A stretch of 46,024 nucleotides of DNA, from IMG/VR virus record IMGVR_UViG_3300042475_003616, positions 1 to 46,024 of that record; one strand, 5' to 3'. Under the pieces are notes generated by a model that ran no database searches, had not been told where the DNA came from, and saw only the letters and a program-made list of their open reading frames with translations. Origin of the DNA: a virus. Below are positions 1 through 16,694 of the stretch, one piece after another. The translations under genes were made by a program, and so were the position numbers. Positions within the stretch are counted from its first letter, which is position 1. Every line of letters starts with the position of its first letter.

Positions 1-1161
1 ACGATCATATTGAAGAAATAGATTTTTTTTATTAAACATGGAATTATTAAATCCCGTTAAAAATCTTAGATCTATAAAATCATTATTATCAATTTTATTT
101 AAAAAATTTATTACGTTTGTCTGATAGGATAATAATTTTTGATTATTTTTTTCAAAATAAACGCCACTATATTGAGTTACAATATTATTGATTTCCCCAG
201 ATAAGTAAAATATTCCACTTAAAGGTATTTGCTTAATTTGGGGTTCATTCATATACCCCATTACCGTTATTCCCCACGGGTTTGTAAATTCTCCCGTTGC
301 AATTCTTTTATAACCAGTAATTTCTGTTCTGTATCCAGTAATTGCGGTATAGCTACCAGTAACACCGGTTGTTATAAAATTTGTCGTATATGAAGATGCA
401 GAAGCGAAATTATAAACAAAACCACTAACAACATTAATTATTTCGTAGTCAAATAAAGATGGTGAAGACAAAATAATATCTTCTATATAACCAATAAAAT
501 TTTGATTATTGCTATATAAAGATGCGGCTTGCGGATTATATCCAATATATAAGTTATTTGGGTCAAAAAAGTATTCATTTCTTACCCCAAAATGGGTATT
601 AACCATTTGATTTTTATTAAAATCGATATGCCCATAATTGATATTATTATTATTTATAATTAAATAAACAATAGATTTATCGTTAATCTTCGTGTTTGAT
701 ATTGAAATTTCTGGCCCAGTATTTTTAAAGTACTCAAAATACAAATAATTATTTGCGGTAACCCCAAACTCAAATCCTTTATAATAAAAACCGCTAACAA
801 TGTTTCCATTTAAAGATATAAATTCTTTATTATTTTCCTCGATAGAAGATAGTAATACCCCGCCATTATAATTTAATTTATCTAAAGATAAAATATATGA
901 AAAATTTTTAAAATCAAAAGAAGAATCTTCTAAATTTTCTAAAACTATATAATTACCAGAAATAAAACCAGCATTAGATTTTTCAGTCCAAAAAGACCCA
1001 GTATCTGGAAAAATATACCCAGTTATAATATGTTTGTCTTTGCCAAAATTCGATATAATCACGTTATCACTAAGATTTTCAAAATTAAAAAAACATGATA
1101 ATTTTTTATTAAAATTGGAAGAAGTATAATTAGCAAAGAAATTTAAAGCCCCAGTATTCAT
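1..1161 (-). CDS. LamG-like tail/fibre structural protein, C-terminus outside window
   Basis: An open frame of 387 codons reads on the minus strand from ATG at 1161 to the window edge without a stop, so the C-terminus is missing. The protein is rich in Asn, Tyr, Phe and Gly. Residues about 80-250 show the alternating strand pattern of concanavalin/LamG-like lectin folds, ending in the typical 'LYIGYN...FIGYIEDIILSS' segment. A Gly-Thr-rich stretch with TGY/TGV steps follows. The start directly abuts the stop of the upstream gene (1162) and has no Shine-Dalgarno sequence, so translation is probably coupled. Its position downstream of the tape measure and two distal tail genes fits a tail-tip or receptor-binding component. 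The fold is inferred from pattern only; binding partner unknown. Confidence 0.6.
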   Translation of the reverse strand, partial: MNTGALNFFANYTSSNFNKKLSCFFNFENLSDNVIISNFGKDKHIITGYIFPDTGSFWTEKSNAGFISGNYIVLENLEDSSFDFKNFSYILSLDKLNYNGGVLLSSIEENNKEFISLNGNIVSGFYYKGFEFGVTANNYLYFEYFKNTGPEISISNTKINDKSIVYLIINNNNINYGHIDFNKNQMVNTHFGVRNEYFFDPNNLYIGYNPQAASLYSNNQNFIGYIEDIILSSPSLFDYEIINVVSGFVYNFASASSYTTNFITTGVTGSYTAITGYRTEITGYKRIATGEFTNPWGITVMGYMNEPQIKQIPLSGIFYLSGEINNIVTQYSGVYFEKNNQKLLSYQTNVINFLNKIDNNDFIDLRFLTGFNNSMFNKKNLFLQYDR

Positions 1162-2718
1162 TTAAAAATTTAAAATAGCCCCTTTCTTAATCTCGAATTC
1201 GTAAACAATCCCATTATCAGAAGTATCTCCATAAGTTATATTTTTTTCTAATAATAATTCATCTTCAGGAGAAAAATCATTCATAGCACTATCTAATAAA
1301 TCAAGAGCTTCGTTTATAATTTGGCCATCCATTCCAGTTTGTTTAGTTACCGCCGTGCCTTTTATACTAGCAGACCCACGATTTTTAGCTTGAAAGTCAA
1401 ATGCCCCGCCACTACCATTTGTAAACTGTATTGGGATGAAAACATCTACAGATGGATTAACCTCAATATCATAATCAAAAGATATGTAATCATTATCCCC
1501 CCCTGGCATTACATCTTCGTTATTATAAGATACACTCACATCCGCAGTAATATCTGCACCTCTATTTATTGTAATAGAATAACTAACTGGATTATTTAAA
1601 TTTAATTTATTCGTTTGACTCGGAGAGTTTTTGGAAAATTCTTCTTCACATAAGCTGGCAAAATCATATTGTTCTATAATACCGTCAATAACCTCATCTC
1701 TTAATTTCATAGATATTTTACTATCAAAAGTAACTGTTCCAGAAATTGTTACCGTAACAATATCTCTTACATGGTCATAATCAGTAGTAAAATTAAAATA
1801 TCTTTTTTGACCTCCGGCCGGAAAAGTATTGTATGTAAAACTAAAATTAACGGTATCTGTTTCATCATTTTCTGAAAAATTAAGGTCCGCTGGGTCTGGA
1901 TCTAGAGTAGCCTCTGCACCCATCTTACCGAACGCATCATTTGCTAATTGAAAAGCGCCTATTTCACCAATTTGACTACGGACTGTAGAAATATTTGTTC
2001 TAATATTTCCTTCTATACTTCCGCTTACTGTAACAGAATAAATACCAGCTCTATCATCATATTGAATATCAATATTATAAACCAATATAGTATCTGTAGT
2101 TGATCCTTCATTTTGCACAAAAGTTACTTCTGCGCTTATTGATCCATTGACCCTATCTGTTGTTTGTAATAATGTTTTGGGAGACAAAGACGATAATTTT
2201 GGAAATCCAAACTTAGAAATGTCAGGAGGTGTTTCTAAATTTAAACTACTTAACCAAGACTGAACTGCACCAAAGCCTTTCTTTGAAGCCGCGCGAGCTG
2301 ATGCATTACGTTTAACAGTTAATAAGCCATCTTTTCCAATCGACGCACTAATATTATCAACAGGTTCTAAAATTCCAACCGTGCCTGAAAACCAATCATC
2401 TGGATATGCTAAAAATTCAGCTCTATATTCTGCGCCTAAATAATCAGAATTTGTGACTTCTATTGATTCGCATCTAGCATAATTAGCAGAAAAACCTCCG
2501 GCACTAATAGATTGATAACCATTTAAAGCCGCATTTTGCCATCCAGCAATTGCATCTAAAATTTGATTACCCGTATTAGGACCGTCCCCACATTCATAAA
2601 TCTTTCCACCAATTACAACTCTTTTTATAGCGCAGTGTTTACCGCCCCATAAAACAATTTCATCCGAAATTCCAACAAATGGATTCGTTCCTAAACTAAT
2701 ATTTCCAAAACTTGCCAT
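1162..2718 (-). CDS. Distal tail structural protein, paralogue of the next upstream gene
   Basis: A 518-residue protein of unknown family, starting at ATG 2718. The N-terminal 130 residues are Gly/Cys-rich and include a 'SIEVTNSDYLGAEYRAEF' segment. The rest is a series of beta-rich modules of about 100 residues, each with a 'VTVSGSI' or 'VTVTISGTV' strand, a helical Ala/Asp stretch and a 'NFSFTYN'-type strand. The same alternation occurs in the 522-residue upstream neighbour, suggesting duplication. It lies third after the tape measure in the tail operon, where distal tail, hub or baseplate proteins are usually encoded. No enzymatic motif is visible. Virion structural role is inferred from context. 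Confidence 0.55.
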   Translation of the reverse strand: MASFGNISLGTNPFVGISDEIVLWGGKHCAIKRVVIGGKIYECGDGPNTGNQILDAIAGWQNAALNGYQSISAGGFSANYARCESIEVTNSDYLGAEYRAEFLAYPDDWFSGTVGILEPVDNISASIGKDGLLTVKRNASARAASKKGFGAVQSWLSSLNLETPPDISKFGFPKLSSLSPKTLLQTTDRVNGSISAEVTFVQNEGSTTDTILVYNIDIQYDDRAGIYSVTVSGSIEGNIRTNISTVRSQIGEIGAFQLANDAFGKMGAEATLDPDPADLNFSENDETDTVNFSFTYNTFPAGGQKRYFNFTTDYDHVRDIVTVTISGTVTFDSKISMKLRDEVIDGIIEQYDFASLCEEEFSKNSPSQTNKLNLNNPVSYSITINRGADITADVSVSYNNEDVMPGGDNDYISFDYDIEVNPSVDVFIPIQFTNGSGGAFDFQAKNRGSASIKGTAVTKQTGMDGQIINEALDLLDSAMNDFSPEDELLLEKNITYGDTSDNGIVYEFEIKKGAILNF

Positions 2719-2722
2719 AATT

Positions 2723-4291
2723 TTAATTTAAAATTTCAAAATATCTAGATTCACATACGCACTCTCTTTTTTTAGGAGAGAATCTAATAGATATCGTATC
2801 ACCAATTTGTGTGGCAGCTGGTTTATATAAATTTTGTTTAAAATCTGATAAAATACAGGAGCTATTAGTACTAATAGTTGATCTTTTAATTTTTAAATTG
2901 GGTAGTAGGTTTGCTTGTTTTTGTAACAATTCTTTTAATTCTGGAATTAAAAAAGTACTGTGCAAGTACAATTCATCTTGTGTATTTTCACTGTTTATTT
3001 TTTTTCTTTCTTTTGTTTCGCCACCGTCTCCTTCGGGATAAAGTAAAGAATCGTTATCTGAAAAACTGTATTTGTAATCAATACTTCCTTCCCCATAATT
3101 TCTAGAAATAGATTCAGAAATACATACGCCATCACCGCCAGCTCTAGTTTTAGCGCTGCCCCTGGAGCAATTAGAACCAAAAAATTGTTCAGCATTATCA
3201 TATTTATCCGGAGAACCGCTAAGCTCATTAATTGATCGTATAGCACCTCCTCCGATAATCTTACCTTGCTCCGACACAATAGTTTCATCTGCTAATTTTT
3301 GAGTTTCGACTCCATATTCCCAATATATCAATTCATTATCTTGAAGATCGAAAGAATTCGTGTATGTAACACTAACAGTGCATTTAGCTTCGTTTCTATT
3401 AAAAATTAAAGATTGATTTATTTTTGCACCTTTTAATGGATCTTTTGACCCATTAACGTAACCACTATAACTACTGAATAAATCATCAGCTTTGTTATCT
3501 AAAAAACTAGAAGCTTTTGATAATGCCGCCTGAGCTCTAGATTCTACTGCTGCTCCTTCTGTAATACCTGTAATCTCAACAGAGAATGTAGCTGTAATAA
3601 CACCGTTAGAATATTGGAAAGACCCTTGCTGGACTACTATATTAGAATTATCTGAAAGATCATTTTCTACCCATTCTTTTACATTTTCATAATTATAAGA
3701 TTGACTTTCATCATCATAATTATAATTTTTAAAAATATAAACCCCATTATCGGAAAAACCGAATAAACTTTGTAATTTATTTCTATCTCCAAGAATACCT
3801 TTTAAAATAGAATCTGCTTGTCCTCCAATATCTTCAGGAGCGTTTAATTTAATCGAACATGAATGTGTTGATATTTTTCTATGTGTGGCCGTCTGCTCGG
3901 TGTAACTTTCTGATATAGAGTCTATATATTGAGAAACTTGTTTATTCACAGAAGAAAGAATTTCATCTAGTTCGCCTTCTTTTGTAATTGTGACTGTCGC
4001 TGAATAATTTTTTATTTGAACGTCTGGACCTTCAGGTTCTGCCTGTAAATTACTAACATATCCCGAACCAAACGAAACGCCATTAATAGTGATATCTTGA
4101 TAAAAAACCGAAGAGCTAAATGCATCACTTTCTTTTCCCGCTACTTCTGTATGTGTTTGGTTAAAACTTTGTCCATTACCAATGGCCGCAGATCTGATAT
4201 TTATCTCTAAAACATTCCTTATCTTTAAATGATCACCAGCCATTTCAGATCTACGATTATAACTTACCCCAACTGCATTAGAAAAGTTCAT
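2723..4291 (-). CDS. Distal tail structural protein
   Basis: A 522-residue protein immediately after the tape measure gene; its ATG overlaps the tape measure TGA stop as ATGA, so translation is probably coupled. The N-terminal part (about 1-120) is beta-rich, with 'INGVSFGSGYVSNLQAEPEG' followed by 'NYSATVTITKEG'. Residues about 220-340 hold a 'GVITATFSVEITGI' strand, an Ala-rich helical stretch and a 'CTVSVTYTNSF' strand, the same module seen in the next gene. The C-terminal 60 residues contain four Cys. The family is not recognised. The slot after the tape measure usually encodes the distal tail protein or hub, so tail-tip structure is the best inference. Confidence 0.55.
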   Translation of the reverse strand: MNFSNAVGVSYNRRSEMAGDHLKIRNVLEINIRSAAIGNGQSFNQTHTEVAGKESDAFSSSVFYQDITINGVSFGSGYVSNLQAEPEGPDVQIKNYSATVTITKEGELDEILSSVNKQVSQYIDSISESYTEQTATHRKISTHSCSIKLNAPEDIGGQADSILKGILGDRNKLQSLFGFSDNGVYIFKNYNYDDESQSYNYENVKEWVENDLSDNSNIVVQQGSFQYSNGVITATFSVEITGITEGAAVESRAQAALSKASSFLDNKADDLFSSYSGYVNGSKDPLKGAKINQSLIFNRNEAKCTVSVTYTNSFDLQDNELIYWEYGVETQKLADETIVSEQGKIIGGGAIRSINELSGSPDKYDNAEQFFGSNCSRGSAKTRAGGDGVCISESISRNYGEGSIDYKYSFSDNDSLLYPEGDGGETKERKKINSENTQDELYLHSTFLIPELKELLQKQANLLPNLKIKRSTISTNSSCILSDFKQNLYKPAATQIGDTISIRFSPKKRECVCESRYFEILN

Positions 4292-7200
4292 ATTATATTA
4301 ATAGATTGTAACGTACGTTTTGTTCTTGGTGTTCCGGAATTTAATTTCCCATCACGAATATTAGATTTAGTTATATTATCTAAAGAACCGTATTTATCCC
4401 ATACTGTTTTTAAAGAAGTTCTCATATCTGCAATCATTGTATCGTATTTTTTAGTAATATTTGCAAAATTTGGAATATCCCCATTACGTTGACTTGAATA
4501 AGTTGTTTGTGGGCTAAAATTAATATTAAATACCGGTCCAGAATTATTAGCAGAATTTGTTTTTGCCATACCATCTTTTGGCATTTTGTAGGCCATATTC
4601 GCAACAATATTTTTAGAAGCATTCGATCCAAATTGTCTTTTTACTACTCCTTCGTAACCTCCTTCAAAAGCATGATCTCTTATAGCAGAAGCTGGTGTTT
4701 GAGTTTTTGCATCGTAAACCATTGGTTTATTATTATACATTGTAAATGTTGGTATTGAATCTGAACCAGCTTCACGTTTTTCTCTCAATTTCGCAGCACT
4801 AATTGCTGTTGGGTCAATAGCAAAATTTGGGACATATCCTTTTGCATATCTATTTTTATCTTCGTCCTCCAAAGGAACAGGTTTAGGAATAATAAATGAC
4901 TCACGATCTTTTAAATATTGTTCGGAAGGACTGTTTTTCATTAAATACGCATCAGTTTCTTGTATGAATCGATCTGTTCTATTGATACTTGCCCTTGCTT
5001 GATCAATGGGTTTTCTTTGTTCTGCTCTTAAAATTTGACGTTCTTGTGCTGCTAAATATTCAGTTTCAAATCTGTCACCCATTCCAACAGATTCAGCTGA
5101 TTTCTTTAAATATTCCATTCTCATATTTTCAGCTTCTCTACTTTTTTGGGATATTATTGCTGGTCTTTTTCCACGCCCCTGAGTATATAATATTTCTTGC
5201 TGAGATTCTTTTTCTGTAAGTTCATACATAGGAGATACAAAGTTAATACCATTGGGTAATTTTTTTGCCAAATCTTCTTCAAAATAATATTTTGTCATTA
5301 TATCTCTTTGAGCTGGATCCATCTTAGATAAACGGTCTGCTCTTGGAGACATTCTATCTCTTGCTGCGGTTGTTGCCATTTCTATATCGCGTACGCTACC
5401 ACCAGCTTGTATTACCTTTTGAACTTCTGGAGTATAAGATAAACTTTGTGAAGAAGCTACTACGGCCCCTTTAGCATCCTCTATAAAAGTCTTTGCTGCT
5501 GGTCCATAATCACTATATTTTCTTCCCAAATAGTTTCCAAGTCCCCCTAACATAGCACCTTGGGAGCCATAATATTCAGTAACATTTCCTTTTCTAGATG
5601 CTATAGTATCATTGCTTGTTCCTTCTGTTACGTACTGCTCATTCTGTGGTCGAGTTACGGAACTTAAACGTAAATCTCGACGTGTTTGTCCAGGAATATT
5701 CTGTCTTGTATAATTAAATGTTCTTCCATCTGGCATGGTATAATTAAGACGACTCGGCATTGTACTTGCTGGTCCAGGACTACCAACATAACCATTACTC
5801 ATTGGAGATTGTGTCATAGCTAATGCTGCCGCATCATATGCCCTTTGATACCATTGGTCAAACTTTGCAGGAGGTTTATTTGGACCTTCGTTATATCCTA
5901 AGTTTGCAGTTCTTTGGTTTGAATATTTTCGATTATTCCATATCATCATTCTTGTACTCATTGGTAATGAACTATCATCCCAAGGACCAAAAAACATACT
6001 CTGAGAAGCTTTTGGGCCATTATCATAATTATTGGATCTTCTTATCGGATAATTTGGTAAAGACCTTTGAGCTATTTTTCCAGCTGGACTTCCAGATTTA
6101 AACATCCACTCTCGAAAATTAAATCTTTCTTTATTATAATTCTCTTCGCCTTCTTTATAAGGAACATATACAGGAAATTCATTTTTTGCTAATTTGGGCC
6201 CCCCATAATAAGAAAACCCTAAATCTTCAAAAAATTCCATATCTTTTTTTGACCAATTTTTAAATTTTGATAAATCAACTTGGGACATAACGCTTTGGTC
6301 ATCAAAAGAATTTGCTTCTTTATCTATAGAAGCACTTCTTAATTTTCGACTCCCACGACTACGCTCAGGTCCTGATCTACCTCTTTCTCTATTTCTAATG
6401 TCGGATCTCTCATTCAGTCTTTTCCAAAGACTTGGTTTCTCTATACTACTTTCAAATAATTTAGTTCTACTAGAATAAGTTCTAAACATTGGTGAATCTG
6501 ATTGTTTACTTTGTAATAATTTAGCCCTGCTCGAATAAGTTTTTCCTAATTCATAAAAATTAGGAACAAATCCATTAGAAAACCTATCTTCATCATCCAT
6601 CCCATGACGAGCTTTAATAGAATTAATTAAACCCATACCGCTATATTTTTGTGCTTTTTTGGGTATATAACCTTGGGCTACAGTCATCATTTTTTGCATT
6701 TCACGGGTTAAAACCGCAGTCTCTCCAGTTCCAGCAAAATTTGGAATTAATTTTTCACCACTGTTTATAACTGCTGGTTCGCCATTTAAATTTGGAATAA
6801 AGAGTGGGGTATCTGTTGGTATCGCACCACCGATGCCCTTACGAATATCTTGCATTTCTTTTGTAAAAGATGGTATATATCCATTAGCTTTTGTTTTTAT
6901 TTCTTCTTTTTCAAGATCTTCTATATAAACTTCTTTTTTAGGCGGAGGTGGTGGAACTTTTTTTACAGGATCTGCTTTTGGTACGTAATCGCCTTGACCT
7001 TTAGAATTAACTTGCATTGCCGGTTGATTATTTTCTCCACCAATTATTTTTTGACCAGTTTGTTCAAAACGAATTCTATCTCTCGCAATTCTTGTAGCTT
7101 TTTCGATATCAGAAATACTACCACCACGTTTAATTGCTTCTGCAACTTCTGGTTCATTAGCTAAACTTCTAGATGATCCAACTTTTTTTCCAGTATCGCT

Positions 7201-10200
7201 ATAAATCGTAGCATTACCTTTTGCATCAATTACTTTTTCACCTTTGTATCGTCCAAGCCCACCCAATTCAGCATCAGCAGTACTATAGTATTTAGTTCGA
7301 TTACCTTCTTTAACTCCAATGACATCATTACTAGTGCCTTCTGTTATATATTCTTGATTTGGCGGTCTAGTCGCTGAAACTAAACGTAATGGCATGTCTG
7401 ACCTGCCTTTTTCACGAACCCTCTTATATGATAGAATAGTACCATCTGGTTTAACATAATTAATTTCACGAGCCATGTCTCGACCAGGAAATACTAATCT
7501 TCCATCGGCTTGGAACCCTGCTCCAGCTGCCATGGCAGCCTCTCTATACCCCAAAGGTTTTTGTTTTGAACCGTTAACGTAACCGATTGTTAAAACTTGT
7601 CCAGATCTAGAAATAGCTCTACCATCATTACCAAGACCTAAACTATCAATCCATTTGTTCATTGATTTGGGGTTTTTTGCGTTGAATGCTTTTTGAATTT
7701 CTTTACTCAATGCATCTGTTGGTTTTTTAGTAGGATTTTCTAAATAACCCCTAACAGATTTATCAATTAAATCAAACGTTTCAGGATTATCAAGCATTAG
7801 CTTTCCTGGATTTTTGATATACTGATCTATAATTTTAGCTGGATCAGTATTTATTAAATTATTATTATTGGCGGTTCTATAAGTATCAATAATTGTACTT
7901 GCAAAATCTTTACCACCTGGTAGTGTAGAATTAATATTTGCAGTATCTGGAACGGAGGACGTAATTGATATAGATGGTTTTGCTGGTGTTTGACCGCCAC
8001 TAACGGATATAGATGGTTTTACTGGTTTTGGACCACCAATTAGACTTGAAATTTTTTCAATTTCTTTTATGATATAATCAGCTTCGTTTTGATCTTTTGC
8101 GAGTCCTTGAGTAATTAAATCTTCTTTTTTAATAGCTCTTTTTTGAAGGCCTTCGAAAAGCATCGCGTTTAAAGTACTTAGTCTTTCGATACTATAATCA
8201 CGAGAATTAGATCTTACAAATTCTGATGTTATAAATCCTCTATTTGGATCATTAACCCCAAACACTCTTTGGTCAAAGTCTTCCATTCCTGTTAAATTAA
8301 CAGTTTTTGTTTTGGCAAATGGCGTATTTGCATTTTCATTTAATGCAATAATTTTATCTGCATATTCTTTTAATCTTTCTCTATATGCTTTAGCGGCCTT
8401 TTCTTTTGTATCTTTATCACCAATAGAGCCTCGTTCGCCAAGAATACCAACCACTCTACCCATTTCTCTCATTTGTCTAATATTTTCATCCATTTTTGTT
8501 GGATTATAAGTAATACCAGCAGGTAATTCATTTTGTGTTAACGCTGTAGCTTCATTAGCAATAGTCCCAATACCAATTGATTCCCCACGTTTAAATGAAA
8601 CTTTTGCAGAACGTCCATAAATTTCTGTGAAGGCTCTGAAGTCTTTATTTTTAGGATCATTCGGATCAAACAATTCAACTCCAGGAATTTCTCCAGCCAT
8701 TCCCAATGGTTTGTCAAAACCTAAACCAAGATTTTTTTGAACTAAAGAATTTATACCGGCCGCTCTTAATAAAGCTTCTTGTAATTCTTTTTCATTCGGA
8801 ACATATCCTTTTGCCATATTTACAGCTTTTTGCATCTTTCTAGTTAAGATTGCTGTTTCGCCGGTATTGGCAAAATTCGGAATTAATTTTTCACCACTAT
8901 TAATCCAAGCTCCATCCCCATTTAAATTTGGAACAAAAAGTGGATAGTCAGAACCTTTAGCTCCACCAACACCTTTTCTAATTGAATTTAATTCTTTAGC
9001 ATATGCTGGCATATATCCTTTACCAAAATTTTGAAAATCTTCTTCATCTTTAAATATATCAAAAACTATCGGCTTAATGGCTTCTGGATCAACTGGTGGA
9101 GATATAGGTACGGATTCTTTTCTAGGCGCCCCGTTTGCACTATAGTTGCCATTACCGCTTCCACCCCCACTACTCCCCCCGCTACTACCATTTCCACTAG
9201 TTTCGGAAGAATTTTCTTTAGATGACTTTTTATTTTTTCCACCCGCATCTGGAGAACTTTGTGTAGAACTTCCTTTACTAGGCGTGTCGCCACTTTCAGA
9301 ACCGTTTTCTCCGCTTTTTTTTTGTCCAGATACCGGGTCCTGTAACGCATCTCTTATATCTGTTAACAGATCGGTATGTTTTCCTAATTCTGTTACCGCT
9401 AATGTTTCTGCACTAAGATTTTTACCGAAACCTTCTCGAAGAGCGGTTGCAGTTTCTTCTGAAATCTTTGGGTCTTTTAATAACTCTTCTATAGCTGAAT
9501 CTCTTAATGGCTGAAGTACTTGATCATCAACTTTTCCACCAACTTGGATAGCTGCTAATTTATCTGCTATAGTGTCAATTAGTGTCTCAATATTACCAGA
9601 TTCAATTTGAGCGGTGACCTCTTCTTCTTTTAAGCCGACTTGTTGTCCAAATGTTTTTAATATAGTTGTAGGCAAACCTCCCAATTGCTCTTGAGGTAAT
9701 TTTTTGAATTCTTCAAAAACAGAATTTAATTGATTAAAAATATCCAGTGATAAACCTTCAACTGCTTGTTGACGAAGTGGATTATCATTTCCAATTTCCG
9801 GAATAATATTACGACCAACAATAGTACTTACTTGATCTAAAAGACCTAAACTCGCGCGACCTTTTTCTATATCTACATCTCGACCTTGAGTACCTTTATT
9901 TAAATTTATTAAGTCCCCAATTGCTTGATAAAATGGGTTTAAAAAAGTTAAATTAGTATTTGCAAACCTTTCTCTTCCACCTACCGCAGTTTGAGAGGCA
10001 GCAATAAATTCTTTCATTATTTCTCCAACTTGCTGTTCTGCCATTACAGTATTTAATTGTTTTAGAAGAGTATTTCCCAAAACAGCTTCACGTACTAAAT
10101 TTTGTAATTCTGGTGTTAGTTTTTGAGCAAGTTCTGCTTGTTGTTCTTTTGGAACATTAGCTTTTTCAAATACCCTTTTTAAATTTTCTTCAATAGATTT

Positions 10201-13200
10201 AAATGGATCTATATCAGACTCTCCAGGTTTAAAATTAATACCAGATAATTGCTGAATTAATTTTTCTATAGATGCTCTAATTTCTACTTGAGCTTTTTGA
10301 GCTACTTTTAATGGATCTTCTTTTGCGCTAGGATCAGCAGTAGTTCTCGTGGATTCTTGCGTCTTTTTTGCCTGTTCTACTAAATATTGGGTTAAAACCC
10401 CCTGAATTTGGGAAAAAGCATTATTCATACTTTCATTACGCTGACGCTCGTTTTCCAATACAGAAGCTTGTGCGTTATATCCACGTGCAGCACTAGTATC
10501 TCCAAGCTGAGATGCTGCGTCTGCAAAATTTCCCAATTTAGCGGCTTCAACAGCTGTTTTAGCAGCTGCCAAGGCATTATTAAAATCTTTTTGAAGTGTT
10601 AAAGAAAAACCGACTGATTGTGCGAAATTATCAAATTTACCCCTAACATCTCCTATATTTTGAAGAAGAGCTTGGACTTCTTTATCAAACTTTCCACTGT
10701 TTCGATCTATAGATGTAAATAAATCACTTTTAGTCTTTGTTTCTCCTAGAGCTGGGCGAGTAACCTGTTCATAAAAATCACCCTGACTTAATTTTTGAAA
10801 TTGTTCTTGTTGGTCTTTTGGAATCTCCAATAAATTTAATAAATCAGTTCTAGATTGACCGGATAAATTTCTTAATTTTTCGGGATCATATCTTCCGCCA
10901 CGAGGGCCGGTGGGAGCCATGTTTTTTTTAAAAAAAGTATCTAATTGATTTACAAATTTTCTATTTTCTTCCAGATTACCAGTACTAGCTATTTTTGAGC
11001 CCAAAGAATTTCTGAATTCTGTATCTATCTGTTTTCTATCTTTGTTTGTATAAATTTTGTCGGAACTAATGCCCATTTCTACATCAGTATAACCGATTTC
11101 ATCTCTAGTTTTTTCAAAATATTTCTGAATACTTTCTCTATTGTTATCACTTTCTGTTTTAGTCTGTAATGCTATAGTATTCTTATCGAGAGCGACTTGT
11201 AGTCCTGCAAAATCTTTATTAATTACGGCAGAGATCGCTTGAGCTTGTAATTCTGGATTACTAGTAAAATCTTTGCCAATGTTTTTTATTAATTCCTGTT
11301 CTGCTTTTCCAGCTTCAATATTTTGACCTTTACTTTGCAAATCTTGAAGTTGTTCAAAACTAGTTTTTGTTCTTTGGCTAGCCTCTGTAAATTGAGTTAA
11401 CTCGGATGCAGACTGTTGTGCTTTAGAAGATAACTCTGGTAAATTTGTATTTAATTCTTTTATAACTCCAGTTAAACCAGTTAAAGCCCCAATTAAACCT
11501 CCAACAATAGCGCCTTTTGGACCAGCAACTAAAGCCCCTGTTCCTGCAAAGCTACCTATATCTCCGAAAGCTGACGCTGCTGCTGAACCAACCCTGGTTT
11601 CTTTAGTTTGTTGTCCGATAGCATTTGCAATTGTTTGTGCTAAAATTGGAGCACCAATTGCTAATGCCGAACCTCCAGCGGTAACACCAGCTCCAAGTTT
11701 TTGCCCGAAAGTAGTTTTTTGGGCATTTCTAACGTTTTGACTTAATTGGCGACGAGTTTCTTCCGATGCTAATCCAGAATCCCTGGCTGCTCTTAAGTTT
11801 GCTTTCGCAGCTTCAACATTTGTTTTTGTTAAATCATTTAAACTTTGTTTAAACTGGTTTCCAAATCCAGAAAGAGCAAAAGCAACAAATCCTAATTGCG
11901 TTACTAATGCTGCAACACTAGCGCTTAAATCTGCTGGAGCCGTATCTTCTTCTACAAAGTTTGGAACAAAACCTCCACTGTAACCACGACTTTTAATAGC
12001 TCGTGATCTAGCCCCTGAATTCGGTTCGTCACGAGTGTTAAAAACACCTAAGCCTAAAGGATTGTAACCGCTAGCAGCTAAGCGTTTGTCTTGAGCAACA
12101 TAAATTTTTCCAGATGAAACGCCAGCTGCGCGCTCACGATTAACAGCGTCCTGCAATGCTGAGAAATTTGGAACATATCCTTGAGCAGCAAGTTTTGCTG
12201 TTTTATCATAAGGAATTCCAGTGGCAGATGCCATCTTTTTTACAAAACTAAGTACGGAATCTGGAGATTTTCTAAATTTTAAATCCGCTGCTGCAAAACC
12301 ACCTACATTTCCATCAAAAATATCTTGTAATTTTACCCCATTTGGGCCTGCTAACTCGCTTGCAAAAAATTCAAATCTTTGATTACCACTTTCGCCTTTA
12401 ACAGCTTTACTTAAAGCTCTATTAACTACAGCTTCAAATAATCTTCCATAAATTTGAGAAAATGCAGACTTATCTATAAATTGATTAAAATCTTCTCCAG
12501 TAACTGGAACTATTTGCGATCCTTTTGGAAGAACTTGATTTGCTAAATCTGTAATAATTGGTGTTAAACGATTATTGATATCATCTTGAAAAGTAAAAGG
12601 GTTTTTAGTCCCCATCGTAGTAAAATCAAAAGGGACTGGCTTTGCGCCTTTAGTTAATATAATTTTACCCCTCTCTTCATCTTGGGGGCCTTGAGAAGCG
12701 TACAAGTAACCAAATTTACCAGAGCCTCTTAGCGCCCCACTGGTAGTAACAATACCTTTCCTTGAAGCAGCAAGTTGTCTGATATCATCTTCAATCTCTT
12801 GTTGGCTTCGATTCCCACCATTTTTTAATACGGCAGCTTTTACTAATCCATAATCTGTTGAAGTTACTTGTCCAACTTTTAATCCAAGACTATCAGCAAA
12901 AGGAATATATTTACCAATATTAGATTTAGAGACATTAAAATTTGGAACGAATCCCTTTGCGGCATTTGGTGGTGTCACAAACGTTCCCTTTTCATCGTTT
13001 GGGCCGACCACTGTTTTAAAAGATTCTGCATTATTAACTGTAGCTAAAAATGAACCGCCCTGACCATCATATAATCTTTTCTTCCTAATTCCTCCTGGTT
13101 CATAACCAGCTTGATAAGCTCCAATAGTTTCCGCAAGAGCATCTTTTTTTGAAACCCCCGCTGCAAAATTTGGTACATAACCAGCCGCTTTTCCTGGCTT

Positions 13201-14808
13201 TCCTGTTGGTGGGGCCATCGGAACCCCATCTTTAACTTTAACACCACCTCTAGATAAAATACTAGCAACTTGAGCCGCAACTTGTTGTTGTTTTTGTAAC
13301 TCGACAGTTTGGGCTCTTAATGTTGTTAATAAAGTTTCTGCAAGTTTATTGACTCCAGCAGTTCCTTGGCTCATTTGAGCAATTAAAGCTGGATTCTTTG
13401 AAAGAATATCTGTTATACTTCTTTGTAATTCTGCTTGTTGTTTTGCCGCATTATTTAATCCTAAAAAGTCTTTAGCACTCCCCACCGCATACTTACTTAA
13501 ATCAGCAAATAGTTTTGCAAAAATTCCTCCTAGTAATGCTAAACCTGGCCCAGCAATAATTTGCCCCAAACCATCAAGAATACCTTTTCCTAGCACACTA
13601 CCATAACTGCCCCCCTCGCTTTCATTAATGCCCCCCAATACTTGATTTGCTCCACCTACTACACGTTCAAAAGCTGGACCAAGAACTCTCCCCCCAGCGT
13701 TAGCCGCAAGTTGTTTTGCATTTTCTTTTAATATATTAATTTGTGCCGCATAAGTTTGATTTAGTTCTTCATTACGACGGATGGCTTGGTCAGTAGTAGA
13801 TGCAGCGACATTTAAAGCACTATTATAGATGGAATATTCTTTGCCTAAATCCGCAAGAGCTGCTTTTAAAATGTTAATTTGGAAAACACCACCAACTTTT
13901 TCAGCAACGTCTGCTTGTTGTAATGTTCCTAATTGATCATAAGTTTTAGCTAAGTCTTGTAACAATTGAATCGTAGACTTAATTTGTCCAGAACTATCCA
14001 TTGTATCAATTCCTAAATTTTCTAATAAATCTACAACCTTACCTCTTTGTAATCTTGTAAAGATTGTTTTAAATGAGTTACCGATTACGGCGCCACCACG
14101 GGCGGTTGTTTGTTGCGCCGCTGTTACGATAGCGATTAATTCATTTAGTGATACTCCAGATTGTGCCGCGCTACTACCAACACGAGATAACGCATCCGCT
14201 AAATCAGCAGAACTGACAGCAAAGGCTGCGTCAACGTTAGCGAATTTATTAACAACTTCTGAAGCCGTAACCGCTTGAGAAGCATAAGAGTTGACTGCCG
14301 CAGTAAGAGACTCGACACTTTTAGCTGCATCTAAGCCACTTAACCTTGATAAAATTAAAGCTTGGTTTGTTCTTTTTAATGTTTCTTCCACTCCAAGACC
14401 TTGACGAGAAAATTCTGTAGCAGCTTTAGCTACTTCGCCAAAAGATTGTCCAGTATCTTTTGCAATATTAAATAGCTCTGATCCAAATTTGTTTAACTGA
14501 GAAGTCGAAACATTAAGAATAACATTTATTTCTGCTAAAGATTTTTGAACTTCTACCGTAGAAGCAGCTAAAGCCCCAAAAGCTTTTTCTAAACCGAATA
14601 TGATTCCAGCGCTAGCACCGAAAGCAATTACGCGAGCATTAGATGCCGCTAATGATTTTTCAAATTCATTAACTTGACCAGTAATTCTACCAAGTGGTTG
14701 ATCACCCTTGGTTTTTAAATTGATGTTATACGACTTATTGACAGTTTTCTGAATTTCTCTTTCTAACTGTCGTGTATCTCCACCAACTGAAACATTAATT
14801 GCAGCCAT
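4288..14808 (-). CDS. Giant tail tape measure protein (TP901-like core plus polyprotein-like domains)
   Basis: A 3506-residue protein, ATG 14808, with AAGGA-type ribosome-binding sequence just upstream. Residues about 50-400 match the tape measure core (TP901/PhageMin-type): 'TEFSRQGLGVEETLKR', 'SYASQAVTASEVVNKFANVD', 'TTARGGAVIGNSFKTIFTR'. Gly/Ala-rich hydrophobic segments lie near 400-440, 950-980 and 1045-1115; coiled-coil-like helices fill much of 1100-1810. A Gly/Ser/Asn linker lies at about 1820-1900. After it the protein is modular, with two copies of a 75-residue block and two of a 130-residue block. A G(Y/F)(V/I)PNF-type motif recurs near residues 544, 618, 876, 945, 1932, 1999, 2642, 2713, 2745, 3322 and 3442. 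Between 620 and 875 is a possible PD-(D/E)XK domain. The protein sets tail length and is ejected with DNA in characterised phages. At about 0.15 nm per residue the upper limit is near 525 nm, less if only the helical half acts as ruler. Confidence 0.9.
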   Translation of the reverse strand: MAAINVSVGGDTRQLEREIQKTVNKSYNINLKTKGDQPLGRITGQVNEFEKSLAASNARVIAFGASAGIIFGLEKAFGALAASTVEVQKSLAEINVILNVSTSQLNKFGSELFNIAKDTGQSFGEVAKAATEFSRQGLGVEETLKRTNQALILSRLSGLDAAKSVESLTAAVNSYASQAVTASEVVNKFANVDAAFAVSSADLADALSRVGSSAAQSGVSLNELIAIVTAAQQTTARGGAVIGNSFKTIFTRLQRGKVVDLLENLGIDTMDSSGQIKSTIQLLQDLAKTYDQLGTLQQADVAEKVGGVFQINILKAALADLGKEYSIYNSALNVAASTTDQAIRRNEELNQTYAAQINILKENAKQLAANAGGRVLGPAFERVVGGANQVLGGINESEGGSYGSVLGKGILDGLGQIIAGPGLALLGGIFAKLFADLSKYAVGSAKDFLGLNNAAKQQAELQRSITDILSKNPALIAQMSQGTAGVNKLAETLLTTLRAQTVELQKQQQVAAQVASILSRGGVKVKDGVPMAPPTGKPGKAAGYVPNFAAGVSKKDALAETIGAYQAGYEPGGIRKKRLYDGQGGSFLATVNNAESFKTVVGPNDEKGTFVTPPNAAKGFVPNFNVSKSNIGKYIPFADSLGLKVGQVTSTDYGLVKAAVLKNGGNRSQQEIEDDIRQLAASRKGIVTTSGALRGSGKFGYLYASQGPQDEERGKIILTKGAKPVPFDFTTMGTKNPFTFQDDINNRLTPIITDLANQVLPKGSQIVPVTGEDFNQFIDKSAFSQIYGRLFEAVVNRALSKAVKGESGNQRFEFFASELAGPNGVKLQDIFDGNVGGFAAADLKFRKSPDSVLSFVKKMASATGIPYDKTAKLAAQGYVPNFSALQDAVNRERAAGVSSGKIYVAQDKRLAASGYNPLGLGVFNTRDEPNSGARSRAIKSRGYSGGFVPNFVEEDTAPADLSASVAALVTQLGFVAFALSGFGNQFKQSLNDLTKTNVEAAKANLRAARDSGLASEETRRQLSQNVRNAQKTTFGQKLGAGVTAGGSALAIGAPILAQTIANAIGQQTKETRVGSAAASAFGDIGSFAGTGALVAGPKGAIVGGLIGALTGLTGVIKELNTNLPELSSKAQQSASELTQFTEASQRTKTSFEQLQDLQSKGQNIEAGKAEQELIKNIGKDFTSNPELQAQAISAVINKDFAGLQVALDKNTIALQTKTESDNNRESIQKYFEKTRDEIGYTDVEMGISSDKIYTNKDRKQIDTEFRNSLGSKIASTGNLEENRKFVNQLDTFFKKNMAPTGPRGGRYDPEKLRNLSGQSRTDLLNLLEIPKDQQEQFQKLSQGDFYEQVTRPALGETKTKSDLFTSIDRNSGKFDKEVQALLQNIGDVRGKFDNFAQSVGFSLTLQKDFNNALAAAKTAVEAAKLGNFADAASQLGDTSAARGYNAQASVLENERQRNESMNNAFSQIQGVLTQYLVEQAKKTQESTRTTADPSAKEDPLKVAQKAQVEIRASIEKLIQQLSGINFKPGESDIDPFKSIEENLKRVFEKANVPKEQQAELAQKLTPELQNLVREAVLGNTLLKQLNTVMAEQQVGEIMKEFIAASQTAVGGRERFANTNLTFLNPFYQAIGDLINLNKGTQGRDVDIEKGRASLGLLDQVSTIVGRNIIPEIGNDNPLRQQAVEGLSLDIFNQLNSVFEEFKKLPQEQLGGLPTTILKTFGQQVGLKEEEVTAQIESGNIETLIDTIADKLAAIQVGGKVDDQVLQPLRDSAIEELLKDPKISEETATALREGFGKNLSAETLAVTELGKHTDLLTDIRDALQDPVSGQKKSGENGSESGDTPSKGSSTQSSPDAGGKNKKSSKENSSETSGNGSSGGSSGGGSGNGNYSANGAPRKESVPISPPVDPEAIKPIVFDIFKDEEDFQNFGKGYMPAYAKELNSIRKGVGGAKGSDYPLFVPNLNGDGAWINSGEKLIPNFANTGETAILTRKMQKAVNMAKGYVPNEKELQEALLRAAGINSLVQKNLGLGFDKPLGMAGEIPGVELFDPNDPKNKDFRAFTEIYGRSAKVSFKRGESIGIGTIANEATALTQNELPAGITYNPTKMDENIRQMREMGRVVGILGERGSIGDKDTKEKAAKAYRERLKEYADKIIALNENANTPFAKTKTVNLTGMEDFDQRVFGVNDPNRGFITSEFVRSNSRDYSIERLSTLNAMLFEGLQKRAIKKEDLITQGLAKDQNEADYIIKEIEKISSLIGGPKPVKPSISVSGGQTPAKPSISITSSVPDTANINSTLPGGKDFASTIIDTYRTANNNNLINTDPAKIIDQYIKNPGKLMLDNPETFDLIDKSVRGYLENPTKKPTDALSKEIQKAFNAKNPKSMNKWIDSLGLGNDGRAISRSGQVLTIGYVNGSKQKPLGYREAAMAAGAGFQADGRLVFPGRDMAREINYVKPDGTILSYKRVREKGRSDMPLRLVSATRPPNQEYITEGTSNDVIGVKEGNRTKYYSTADAELGGLGRYKGEKVIDAKGNATIYSDTGKKVGSSRSLANEPEVAEAIKRGGSISDIEKATRIARDRIRFEQTGQKIIGGENNQPAMQVNSKGQGDYVPKADPVKKVPPPPPKKEVYIEDLEKEEIKTKANGYIPSFTKEMQDIRKGIGGAIPTDTPLFIPNLNGEPAVINSGEKLIPNFAGTGETAVLTREMQKMMTVAQGYIPKKAQKYSGMGLINSIKARHGMDDEDRFSNGFVPNFYELGKTYSSRAKLLQSKQSDSPMFRTYSSRTKLFESSIEKPSLWKRLNERSDIRNRERGRSGPERSRGSRKLRSASIDKEANSFDDQSVMSQVDLSKFKNWSKKDMEFFEDLGFSYYGGPKLAKNEFPVYVPYKEGEENYNKERFNFREWMFKSGSPAGKIAQRSLPNYPIRRSNNYDNGPKASQSMFFGPWDDSSLPMSTRMMIWNNRKYSNQRTANLGYNEGPNKPPAKFDQWYQRAYDAAALAMTQSPMSNGYVGSPGPASTMPSRLNYTMPDGRTFNYTRQNIPGQTRRDLRLSSVTRPQNEQYVTEGTSNDTIASRKGNVTEYYGSQGAMLGGLGNYLGRKYSDYGPAAKTFIEDAKGAVVASSQSLSYTPEVQKVIQAGGSVRDIEMATTAARDRMSPRADRLSKMDPAQRDIMTKYYFEEDLAKKLPNGINFVSPMYELTEKESQQEILYTQGRGKRPAIISQKSREAENMRMEYLKKSAESVGMGDRFETEYLAAQERQILRAEQRKPIDQARASINRTDRFIQETDAYLMKNSPSEQYLKDRESFIIPKPVPLEDEDKNRYAKGYVPNFAIDPTAISAAKLREKREAGSDSIPTFTMYNNKPMVYDAKTQTPASAIRDHAFEGGYEGVVKRQFGSNASKNIVANMAYKMPKDGMAKTNSANNSGPVFNINFSPQTTYSSQRNGDIPNFANITKKYDTMIADMRTSLKTVWDKYGSLDNITKSNIRDGKLNSGTPRTKRTLQSINII
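5350..5750 (-). repeat. Tape measure domain duplication, copy 2
   Basis: Codes for about residues 3020-3153 of the tape measure. It shares an ordered set of motifs with the copy at 7075-7470: 'NYTMPDGRTFNYTR', 'LRLSSVTRPQNEQYVTEGTS', 'GGLGNYLG', a Ser-rich step, 'PEVQKVIQAGGSVRDIE' and 'AARDRM'. The function of this domain is unknown. Confidence 0.75.
6440..6548 (-). repeat. Short tandem repeat in tape measure (YSSR(A/T)KL)
   Basis: Two adjacent copies of about 19 residues, 'KTYSSRAKLLQSKQSDSPMF' and 'RTYSSRTKLFESS', sit just after a GFVPNF motif. The nucleotide copies also match closely (gaataagtt...ttagttctact / gaataagtt...ttagccctgct). A small recent tandem duplication is the likely origin. 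Confidence 0.7.
6660..6888 (-). repeat. Tape measure 75-residue block, copy 2
   Basis: Codes for about residues 2641-2716. The order 'GYIPSFTKEMQDIRKGIGGA', 'PLFIPNLNG', 'INSGEKLIPNFAGTGETAVL', 'TREMQK' and 'GYIPKK' repeats that of the block at 8797-9021 almost residue for residue, so the two are clear duplicates. Both flank large domains of unknown function. Confidence 0.85.
7075..7470 (-). repeat. Tape measure domain duplication, copy 1
   Basis: Codes for about residues 2447-2578. Matching motifs with copy 2 (5350-5750) are 'NYVKPDGTILSYKR', 'LRLVSATRPPNQEYITEGTS', 'GGLGRYKG', 'SSRSLANEPEVAEAIKRGGS' and 'ARDRI'. The function of this domain is unknown. Confidence 0.75.
8797..9021 (-). repeat. 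Tape measure 75-residue block, copy 1
   Basis: Codes for about residues 1930-2004, right after the Gly/Ser linker. Shared order with copy 2 (6660-6888): 'GYMPAYAKELNSIRKGVGGA', 'PLFVPNLNG', 'INSGEKLIPNFANTGETAIL', 'TRKMQK' and 'GYVPNEKE'. Confidence 0.85.
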
Positions 14809-14833
14809 TTTTCCTTATTCCTTTGTTATTAAG

Positions 14834-14843
14834 TATTTACACT
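14834..14843 (-). promoter_or_regulatory. AGTGTAAATA motif upstream of the tape measure gene
   Basis: Minus-strand AGTGTAAATA ends 25 nt before the tape measure ATG and starts right after the stop of the upstream ORF. It is identical to the copies at 42477-42486 and 41133-41142. A ribosome-binding sequence (AAGGA) lies between motif and start, so a promoter here would give a normal leader. Proposed late promoter; not tested. Confidence 0.5.
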
Positions 14844-15863
14844 TTATAAACTTTCTCGAACCTTTAAATAATCATGTTTTTCTAAAGTACCACCTTTTTC
14901 TTTAGCCAAATCTAATAAAGTTTTACCTTTAAACTTTTCTACTTTAATACCCATTTGTTCTAAATCTTCTGGGGTCGCTCCAACTAGGCTTGATACTGCA
15001 TTTTTACCTTTATTCTTTTTATTAGCTGCTTTTTTGTAAGATTTATTTTGATCTTCTAGCCATCCTATAAATTTTTCCGGATCTTCTAAGATATTTTCAG
15101 GAACAGGGCTTCCACTTTCGGCATAACTTTTTATAGTATTTTTATATAGTTTCCCGTATATAAGAATATCTGATTGATATTTTGTACAATCTAATAATTT
15201 TTTACCCCAAAAAACTTCTGGATTTTCTGTTAAAAAAACTAGATTTTGAAAGAATCCTGATGCGGCTAATAATTTAATATGCAATTCACTAATTTTGTGT
15301 TGGAAAATCCCAAATGTTTTTTTTAACTTTTCAAAAAAATCTTCATCTATATCATAATAATCAGAAAAATCACTAAAAAATTTATTTTGTAAAGAGGCGT
15401 CTTTATAAGTATTAAAAACTATTAGTTCGTCAACGAACCTGTTATTTGCATAATCTTCTGCCGTATAGTTGATAATTTCATTTCTTTCTTTGATAAGAGT
15501 AATTAAAATCGACTCAACTTTTTTGATCTGTTTATCAATCGCACGCTTTTCAGTTGGGAACTGTAGGCTTAACTTTGTTTTATTTAAATTTGATTTTGAA
15601 CGTTGTAAAATTTTAATTTCAGATTCTTTTTTACTAGTCCACCAGCCGCCGTCAATAGCTTCTTTAATTTTTTCTTCTTCCGTTGGTAGACCCTTTTGTT
15701 TTGCGGCCTCTAATAGGTTTTTATATTTTGAATTAACGCCAAAGCTTTCGATTATCGTAGGATGTTTAAAATAAATATTATAATTATCTATTTTATATAA
15801 AGTATACCCACAAATTATTTCATAAAATAATTCTTCATAATTTAATGAAGATTTATTATCCAC
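14844..15863 (-). CDS. Tail assembly chaperone-like protein (GTG start)
   Basis: A 339-residue protein of unrecognised family. No ATG lies in the N-terminal half; the first in-frame start is GTG 15863, directly preceded in frame by TAG and TAA, which end the upstream 274-residue ORF. The two ORFs therefore share one frame, separated by two stops and one codon. A weak GGG precedes the GTG. The protein is mostly helical and Lys/Glu-rich, with a tract 'KSYKKAANKKNKGKNA' near residue 275. Its C-terminus, 'GIKVEKFKGKTLLDLAKEKG', faintly resembles an ankyrin-type turn. The position between tail tube and tape measure fits the second tail assembly chaperone (lambda gpGT slot). This assignment comes mainly from context. 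Confidence 0.45.
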   Translation of the reverse strand: MDNKSSLNYEELFYEIICGYTLYKIDNYNIYFKHPTIIESFGVNSKYKNLLEAAKQKGLPTEEEKIKEAIDGGWWTSKKESEIKILQRSKSNLNKTKLSLQFPTEKRAIDKQIKKVESILITLIKERNEIINYTAEDYANNRFVDELIVFNTYKDASLQNKFFSDFSDYYDIDEDFFEKLKKTFGIFQHKISELHIKLLAASGFFQNLVFLTENPEVFWGKKLLDCTKYQSDILIYGKLYKNTIKSYAESGSPVPENILEDPEKFIGWLEDQNKSYKKAANKKNKGKNAVSSLVGATPEDLEQMGIKVEKFKGKTLLDLAKEKGGTLEKHDYLKVRESL

Positions 15864-15869
15864 ATTCTA

Positions 15870-16694
15870 TTACCCAACGCTTTGGGGCGCCGGAGGTGTA
15901 GCCAGACTATCCGAAATTACATCTGACGTGGATTCAGGCGCGGGAGCGGGCGCAGGAGCAGGCTCGGTTTCTTCTGTAGAAATAACTTCGGATTCATTTA
16001 CTTCTTCTACTTGGTTTAAACTATCATCATATGATTTCAAATCTTCAAAAGAATTTGCCCTACCTAAAAACCATAAAGTAATTAAATATGTTAATCGTCT
16101 TAATACTGTTAAAATAAAAGTATTTTTATCAGCACCATCTTCTAATAAATCATAAGAATCCAATTTAGAATCGAAATTTGGTTCTTCAAAAATCATTTTA
16201 GGCTGCTCTTCTATTATTTCATAAGAAAGGTTTAATACCCACCATAAAATACTACGATTACGAGCTTTCGATTCGGCTGTATTTTCAAAAATAGAAATTT
16301 GAGAAGCTTCAAAAGCTTGAATTTCATTTTTGATATTTTCTAAATCATTTATCAAAATTCCGGCGCGTTCTTTTTCGTCTTCCGTTCTATCACTAACATT
16401 TTTAATTAAAATAGATTGTAATTCAAAAGATTTATCTCTAAAATCTATTAATAAATTTCCATATACCTCTCTATCTTTTTCACTTATACTTCCGCCCCCA
16501 TTTGATAAGATCGTATTCCACGCAGCTTTTGGAAGAACTCCAGCTTTAGCAAATCTTGACACTTCTGATGAATAAAAAAGCTCACCTTCTTCTTTTAATT
16601 TTCTATTAGGTTTTAAAATAGCAAATTTTTTAGTTTCGTCTTTATCATTTTTTATTTCAAACTCGTATAACCAATTTTTATTATATTTTTCCAT
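15870..16694 (-). CDS. Tail assembly chaperone-like protein
   Basis: A 274-residue protein with ATG at 16694. The N-terminus 'KNWLYEFEIKND...KKFAILKPNRKLKEEGELFYSSE' resembles the opening of putative tail assembly chaperones of large phages, with an early beta segment and then a conserved 'P.....EE.EL.YS' helix. The middle is helical. The C-terminal 50 residues are acidic and Pro/Ala-rich (PAPAPAPAPE), a likely flexible tail. The next ORF continues in the same frame after TAA TAG. In characterised siphoviruses such chaperones bind the tape measure and recruit tail tube subunits. The assignment rests on position and this N-terminal pattern. Confidence 0.5.
   Translation of the reverse strand: MEKYNKNWLYEFEIKNDKDETKKFAILKPNRKLKEEGELFYSSEVSRFAKAGVLPKAAWNTILSNGGGSISEKDREVYGNLLIDFRDKSFELQSILIKNVSDRTEDEKERAGILINDLENIKNEIQAFEASQISIFENTAESKARNRSILWWVLNLSYEIIEEQPKMIFEEPNFDSKLDSYDLLEDGADKNTFILTVLRRLTYLITLWFLGRANSFEDLKSYDDSLNQVEEVNESEVISTEETEPAPAPAPAPESTSDVISDSLATPPAPQSVG

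Follow-up and report, generated by a model that had tools for sequence, protein, structure and literature searches.

A phage tape measure protein with exchangeable, motif-bounded modules: a candidate carrier of cargo enzymes

The window, by which we mean the whole stretch of 46,024 bases analysed here, comes from a record classed as virus and contains one very long open frame on the minus strand. Residues 116–307 of the encoded protein matched the Pfam tape measure family PhageMin_Tail (PF10145) with an E-value of 2.1e-28 and a score of 100 bits, above the cut-off of 33.2, and PHROG tail length tape measure families were matched as well. The protein is long and helical and lies within a tail gene cluster, the window also giving matches to a tail fibre and to further tail proteins; it was assigned as a PhageMin_Tail tape measure. 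Elsewhere in the window, positions 26647–28626 carry an fn3 domain and a major-tail-like match, and positions 32407–34047 encode a tail fibre with collagen repeats and a BppL_N-like stretch. The overall layout of the tape measure gene is as follows.

4288..14808, minus strand: tape measure protein, 3,506 aa, single open frame
9334..11952, minus strand: helical tape measure core behind the slot, aa 953–1825, common to the shorter relative L002
9064..9333, minus strand: Gly/Ser-rich linker, aa 1826–1915 (approximate); the protein of relative L002 stops about here

An earlier note on this DNA had placed a Gly/Ser linker at residues ≈1820–1900 and had claimed that coiled-coil character is lost beyond it. 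The linker is real, with a G+P fraction of 0.278 over residues ≈1826–1915, and both helix propensity and heptad regularity are lower on its C-terminal side than in the core. In studied siphophages, the length of the tape measure determines the length of the tail, and the extension beyond the linker might merely lengthen the ruler to give a longer tail. We consider this very unlikely, given that the extension falls below the core in helix propensity and heptad regularity and contains duplicated framing units, described below.

The tape measure contains seven exact copies of the motif G[YF][VI]P[NS]F, against 0.0006 expected from 5,000 residue shuffles (maximum 1), ruling out chance, and there were none in the remaining frames of the window. 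The motif had been described as a regular feature of the C-terminal part. It does recur there, with three exact copies at aa 2643, 2746 and 3324, variants at 1931 (GYMPAY), 1958 (FVPNL), 1974 (KLIPNF) and 2001 (GYVPN), as well as at 2670, 2686, 2713 and 3444, and two internal duplications. It is not specific to that part, since four of the seven exact copies (aa 543, 619, 877 and 946) are in the N-terminal half, making the motif a feature of the entire tape measure. These four are conserved, and a repeat-driven artefact limited to the C-terminus was therefore ruled out. In the N-terminal half, the copies delimit two framing units (m1–m2 and m3–m4) on either side of a variable slot, with hydrophobic regions ahead and behind:

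13504..13560, minus strand: hydrophobic glycine-rich segment, aa 417–435 (IIAGPGLALLGGIFAKLFA), ahead of the slot, from hydropathy
12937..13182, minus strand: framing unit m1–m2, aa 543–624 (GYVPNF...GFVPNF)
12181..12936, minus strand: slot module, aa 625–876, with nuclease-like residues E792, E813 and D842-x-K844, from a 55-sequence alignment
11956..12180, minus strand: framing unit m3–m4, aa 877–951 (GYVPNF...R.E..AG...GLGVFN..DEP...GFVPNF)
11491..11928, minus strand: hydrophobic/glycine-rich cluster, aa 961–1106, behind the slot, just past m4

The analysis gave no sign of cleavage at the motif or of a role in packing within the tube. Were the motif a protease processing site, the protein would be a polyprotein from which individual cargo proteins are released. 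The regular occurrence of the motif at module ends would suit such a role, as would the zincin-like modules of some relatives, zincins having been proposed to process polyvalent proteins (PMC5512222). However, four of the sites are internal to the ruler and are retained by relatives with a single small module and without a recognised protease, and the unit is conserved over ≈75 aa, far longer than a cleavage site. Processing is thus improbable, and "module boundary" fits the motif better, because cleavage before assembly would cut the ruler mid-way in every relative. We propose that the framing unit is a uniform joint linking a changing cargo to a constant ruler. Near their ends, the C-termini of the L121 and L127 proteins have GGRVKGGSGTRDDVPA(M/L)L..GE(Y/F)VI, the spacing of which recalls the VINSGEKLIPNF framing unit; from this likeness, the boundary motif may be derived from a general tape measure motif. 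Our search of the open-access literature returned no papers on the boundary motif.

A peptide search identified a relative, L002, on a 166 kb contig, that is ≈40–44% identical to the window tape measure over the first ≈1,890 residues. It has the same four motifs in the same places and stops where the window linker starts, lacking the extension, showing that a tape measure of this type can do without the additional 1,600 aa. Searching viral contigs with a DNA pattern built on the block that follows motif 3 gave 96 matching stretches, many of them with four motifs near aa 540, 621, 880 and 955, and most relatives have their motifs positioned as in the N-terminal half of the window protein. With a profile of the core, the viral collection gave over 580 related stretches and the genome collection (GTDB) 10 matches, the latter mostly on uncultured MAG contigs assigned to Flavobacteriales, Halobacteriovorax, Neomarinimicrobiota and Verrucomicrobiales, along with a weak Ruminococcus match. 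The MAG contigs may be co-binned viruses and give no more than a lead to the host, the best being Flavobacteriales. No prophages with the m3–m4 block were found in the GTDB genomes. Among 50,697 phage records, the slot region was not found at the sensitivity used, yielding no cultured relatives, nor were any cultured relatives of the C-terminal extension found. Cultured relatives match the tape measure core only, at ≈25–28% identity in Bacillus, Lactococcus and other phages.

The alignment of 55 sequences of the commonest slot module showed invariant G..FE, K and K residues, a D in at least 90% of sequences and a (D/E)xK motif, at an overall identity of ≈20%. The E, D and (D/E)xK residues expected of the PD-(D/E)XK superfamily are thus conserved, with the window module having E813 where most relatives have D. 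The signature is repeated in independent module families in L106a, L152 and L156. While the slot module resembles this superfamily in its E...D...(D/E)xK...K pattern around an alpha helix and a strand, it differs in lacking any sequence-profile or fold match: searches of Pfam, the PDB and profile collections matched no nuclease family. Structure prediction of the modules, proposed in the earlier note as a check, succeeded in part. The slot version from L053 (L053:6472-7080) was predicted as a compact alpha/beta domain with a pLDDT of 87.5, not a continuous helix, whereas the model of the window module was poor (pLDDT 59) and gave no fold match. Foldseek found no fold similar to the L053 model in the PDB and BFVD, and the alpha-beta-beta-beta-alpha-beta core of the superfamily was not recognised in that model, which had no PDB match; the window module was not filed as a member. 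In light of the missing fold and profile matches, we call the module nuclease-like, on its residues only. Most likely, the residue pattern reflects a divergent PD-(D/E)XK-type nuclease, and the L053 model may represent a fold not seen before or a nuclease that has diverged very far.

The alignment of related tape measures, also suggested earlier, showed motif-bounded segments exchanged between near-identical proteins and multiplied or missing in others. We split 44 proteins into N-terminal core, m1–m2, slot, m3–m4 and following core, and determined pairwise identities for the 84 pairs with N-terminal cores at least 80% identical, after removal of duplicates. The two framing units had mean identities of 80% and 81% and fell below 35% in none of the 84 pairs; the slot had a mean of 39% and was below 35% in 56 of them. 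For the pair L021/L098, identities of the five parts in order were 98, 90, 25, 96 and 95%, and for L037/L064 they were 98, 86, 26, 96 and 88%. The reverse case was seen in L048/L058, where the slots are 91% identical and the following core 33%. As both flanks are near-identical, plain fast evolution is insufficient to explain the divergence of the slot. Judging from these comparisons, the modules are exchanged as cassettes that end at the motifs, and their gain, loss and exchange could have come about through recombination within or close to the flanking units. A 2023 survey found a mosaic signal in tape measures, leaving genuine recent cases unconfirmed (PMC10684548); the swapped pairs described here would be such cases.

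We looked for an immunity gene covarying with the slot, and found none adjoining the tape measure gene in the two swapped pairs, which argues against a classical toxin–immunity system. Far from the tape measure, one member of a swapped pair has a 204-aa gene (L109/L110 joined, 36102–36716) that the other lacks. The gene that follows the tape measure is 74% and 70% identical in the two pairs. This variation would be expected if the modules were structural components of the tail tip or tube wall that fit the ruler to changing tail-tip or receptor proteins and vary together with them, and the window's own modules, having no enzyme match, would be consistent with this as well. However, the slots swap while the neighbouring tail genes all retain homologues, empty slots occur, and some relatives have slot contents without an obvious tail role, namely GNAT, cytidyltransferase-like and sigma-r4 HTH domains. 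On balance, we give the structural explanation a small chance of being right.

Across uncultured aquatic phages, the slot is empty, has a single module, or has several (up to 11). In L126 and several others it is empty, the core continuing directly into m3–m4. L105 and L106 have two slot modules each, L087 and L095 have one extra module ended by an additional motif, and several modules are found in each of L152, L153, L154, L181 and L213. In L127 (IMGVR_UViG_3300027573_000779, a 208,933-bp contig), positions 240–16646 encode a tape measure of 5,468 aa; from m1 to m3 it has 11 segments that each reach 100 aa or more, totalling ≈3,160 aa. The 136 segments cut from the set grouped into 40 families. 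One of these has 73 members and 28 have a single member, a few of the latter being stretches of tape measure core and not cargo.

Two of the slot contents in relatives matched Pfam families above the cut-off: a GNAT acetyltransferase (PF00583, E 7e-8) and a cytidyltransferase-associated domain (PF16581, E 3e-8). In addition, there was a cytidyltransferase PHROG match (1e-5), a sigma-70 r4 match just under the cut-off (4e-5) along with a PHROG sigma factor (1e-6), a metalloprotease PHROG match (3e-5) with HExxH, a weak ParB-like match and DUF2441. Other segments were judged by eye to be P-loop, kinase-like or ART-like. Several distinct effector domains in one polypeptide were seen in L127 and L152–L154; the window tape measure has one nuclease-like module plus C-terminal modules without an assigned domain. 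The L127 modules include three HExxH segments, a sigma-r4-like HTH, a DUF2441 match and a weak HipA-like match. One slot module of L152 (L152:13670-14671) combines a HELFH zincin-like part with YDWDGTI, which resembles a HAD phosphatase motif. The sequences ANELTHLIQ in the L005 slot, which had no Pfam match, and NEATHVNQ in L160 are like the HExxHxxQ motif of DUF4157, except for Asn in place of the first His.

The proposal that motif-bounded modules serve as cargo thus gained support, in that they are swapped as units, vary in copy number and include some recognisable enzymes. Their placement in the C-terminal 1,600 residues did not stand as put forward: the main slot is in the N-terminal half, and the C-terminal modules of the window have no enzyme match. 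Another explanation is that the enzymes work in the cell that makes the virions or while these are assembled, for instance by altering the tail or shielding phage DNA, and that the tape measure serves as a platform for their expression. The acetyltransferase, sigma-like and metalloprotease-like domains could function in the infected cell at a late stage, but assembly would then require a folded enzyme chain to pass into the tube, and the rapid exchange and stacking of modules are like those of injected polyvalent proteins (PMC5512222), leaving this explanation quite improbable.

The extension behind the linker consists of the following parts.

8794..9018, minus strand: framing unit copy, aa 1931–2005, 56% identical to the L139 N-terminal m1–m2; repeats aa 2643–2717
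8041..8793, minus strand: module W1, aa 2006–2256, 64–68% identical in L105
7069..7488, minus strand: module D copy 1, aa ≈2441–2580, an internal repeat with a homologous stretch in L105
6658..6882, minus strand: framing unit copy, aa 2643–2717 (GYIPSF...NSGEKLIPNFAGTGETAVLTR...GYIP), 61% identical to the L139 N-terminal m1–m2, E 6e-25
5779..6573, minus strand: module W3, aa 2746–3010, GFVPNF at its start
5350..5772, minus strand: module D copy 2, aa 3013–3153
4291..4839, minus strand: last module, aa 3324–3506, GYVPNF at its start, 36% identical to the L105 C-terminus

The two internal duplications pair aa 1931–2005 with 2643–2717 and aa ≈2441–2580 with 3013–3153. The extension was found in only one other contig (L020/L105), at 64–68% identity over aa 1921–2256, and no further relatives were detected by peptide or DNA pattern; since a second contig carries it, an assembly chimera is unlikely. 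L138, L139, L151 and L160 likewise have copies of the motif in their C-terminal parts. Module W1 is weakly similar (E 8e-6) to the C-terminal module of L160 (L160:16478-17593), which contains the metalloprotease-like NEATHVNQ and had no match in Pfam and PHROGs. At this position W1 has NEATALTQ, so that one metal ligand would be lost if W1 is a metalloprotease relative; perhaps it is a degenerate one. No relatives of W3 were found, and no Pfam family or enzyme was matched by the window's C-terminal modules. The duplicated framing units, the lineage-specific presence and the one weak homology suggest that these modules, too, may be cargo. In that case, a copy of the framing unit would have been placed behind the Gly/Ser linker in this phage lineage, and a second cargo region of ≈1,600 aa would have grown at the C-terminus.

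In most relatives examined, the slot lies between two hydrophobic regions, with a segment like aa 417–435 similarly placed. A glycine zipper is required for translocation of a T6SS DNase effector, and a similar motif is present in tape measures (PMC10240207). We favour the reading, at a probability of about two in three, that this phage tape measure is a cargo carrier with an injected array resembling polyvalent proteins. Modularity, swapping, motif boundaries, duplication and, in relatives, enzyme domains are evident from the sequences; ejection, membrane topology and the activity and target of the modules are what the model would add. Delivery into the host at invasion is suggested by tape measure biology (PMC13190303, PMC13277306). 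The conserved helical core would set the tail length and span the tube, and the slot between the hydrophobic segments would carry separate modules, each closed by a G(Y/F)(V/I)PNF-type boundary. On infection, the chain would exit the tube before the DNA, the hydrophobic segments would insert in the inner membrane with the slot loop facing the periplasm or cytoplasm, and the modules would fold and act there. The wider claim, to which we lean slightly, is that in a widespread lineage of uncultured aquatic phages the tape measure is a general delivery vehicle, its standardised slot holding 0 to ≈12 exchangeable motif-bounded enzymes that are injected into the cytoplasm before the genome.

To our knowledge, defences must be neutralised at phage entry, and only virion-carried proteins act so early. 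Polyvalent proteins carried in the capsid are already known; a tail ruler with a swappable enzyme array would, if the cargo carrier reading is correct, be a second route, ready before the DNA arrives. The passage of folded enzymes through a narrow tube would become testable, the protein would offer a natural scaffold for delivering proteins into bacteria, and the boundary motif would be a means of finding new early effectors in metagenomes.

There is precedent for polyvalent proteins, for muralytic domains on tape measures and for tape-measure-like effectors; in the open-access literature searched, we found no description of a tape measure that combines an exchangeable multi-enzyme slot with its own boundary motif. 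Muralytic domains are found on tape measures such as that of mycobacteriophage TM4, as a motif, and YomI of SPbeta. The proteins described here likewise have enzyme domains on a tape measure, but the TM4 and YomI domains degrade the cell wall, whereas no peptidoglycan hydrolase was recognised here. Polymorphic toxin systems have an exchangeable toxin module on a conserved carrier. Exchange of modules is seen here in the sequences, and the window was not filed as a member, there being no adjacent covarying immunity gene in the two swapped pairs. Polyvalent proteins, described in phages and conjugative elements by Iyer et al. (2017) with tape measures not mentioned, similarly combine many exchangeable effector-like domains in one giant mobile-element polypeptide, including zincin-like peptidases and ParB/sulfiredoxin-like domains, for which similar motifs or weak matches are found here (PMC5512222). 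Unlike them, the array described here is in a tail ruler, between hydrophobic segments and with a dedicated boundary motif. Sle1 and Tme of contractile injection systems share with it a tube-packaged, tape-measure-like helical part and a reconfigurable functional domain; they are bacterial effectors with one C-terminal functional domain, whereas the present protein is itself the tape measure of a phage and has its multi-module slot inside the chain (PMC13277306).
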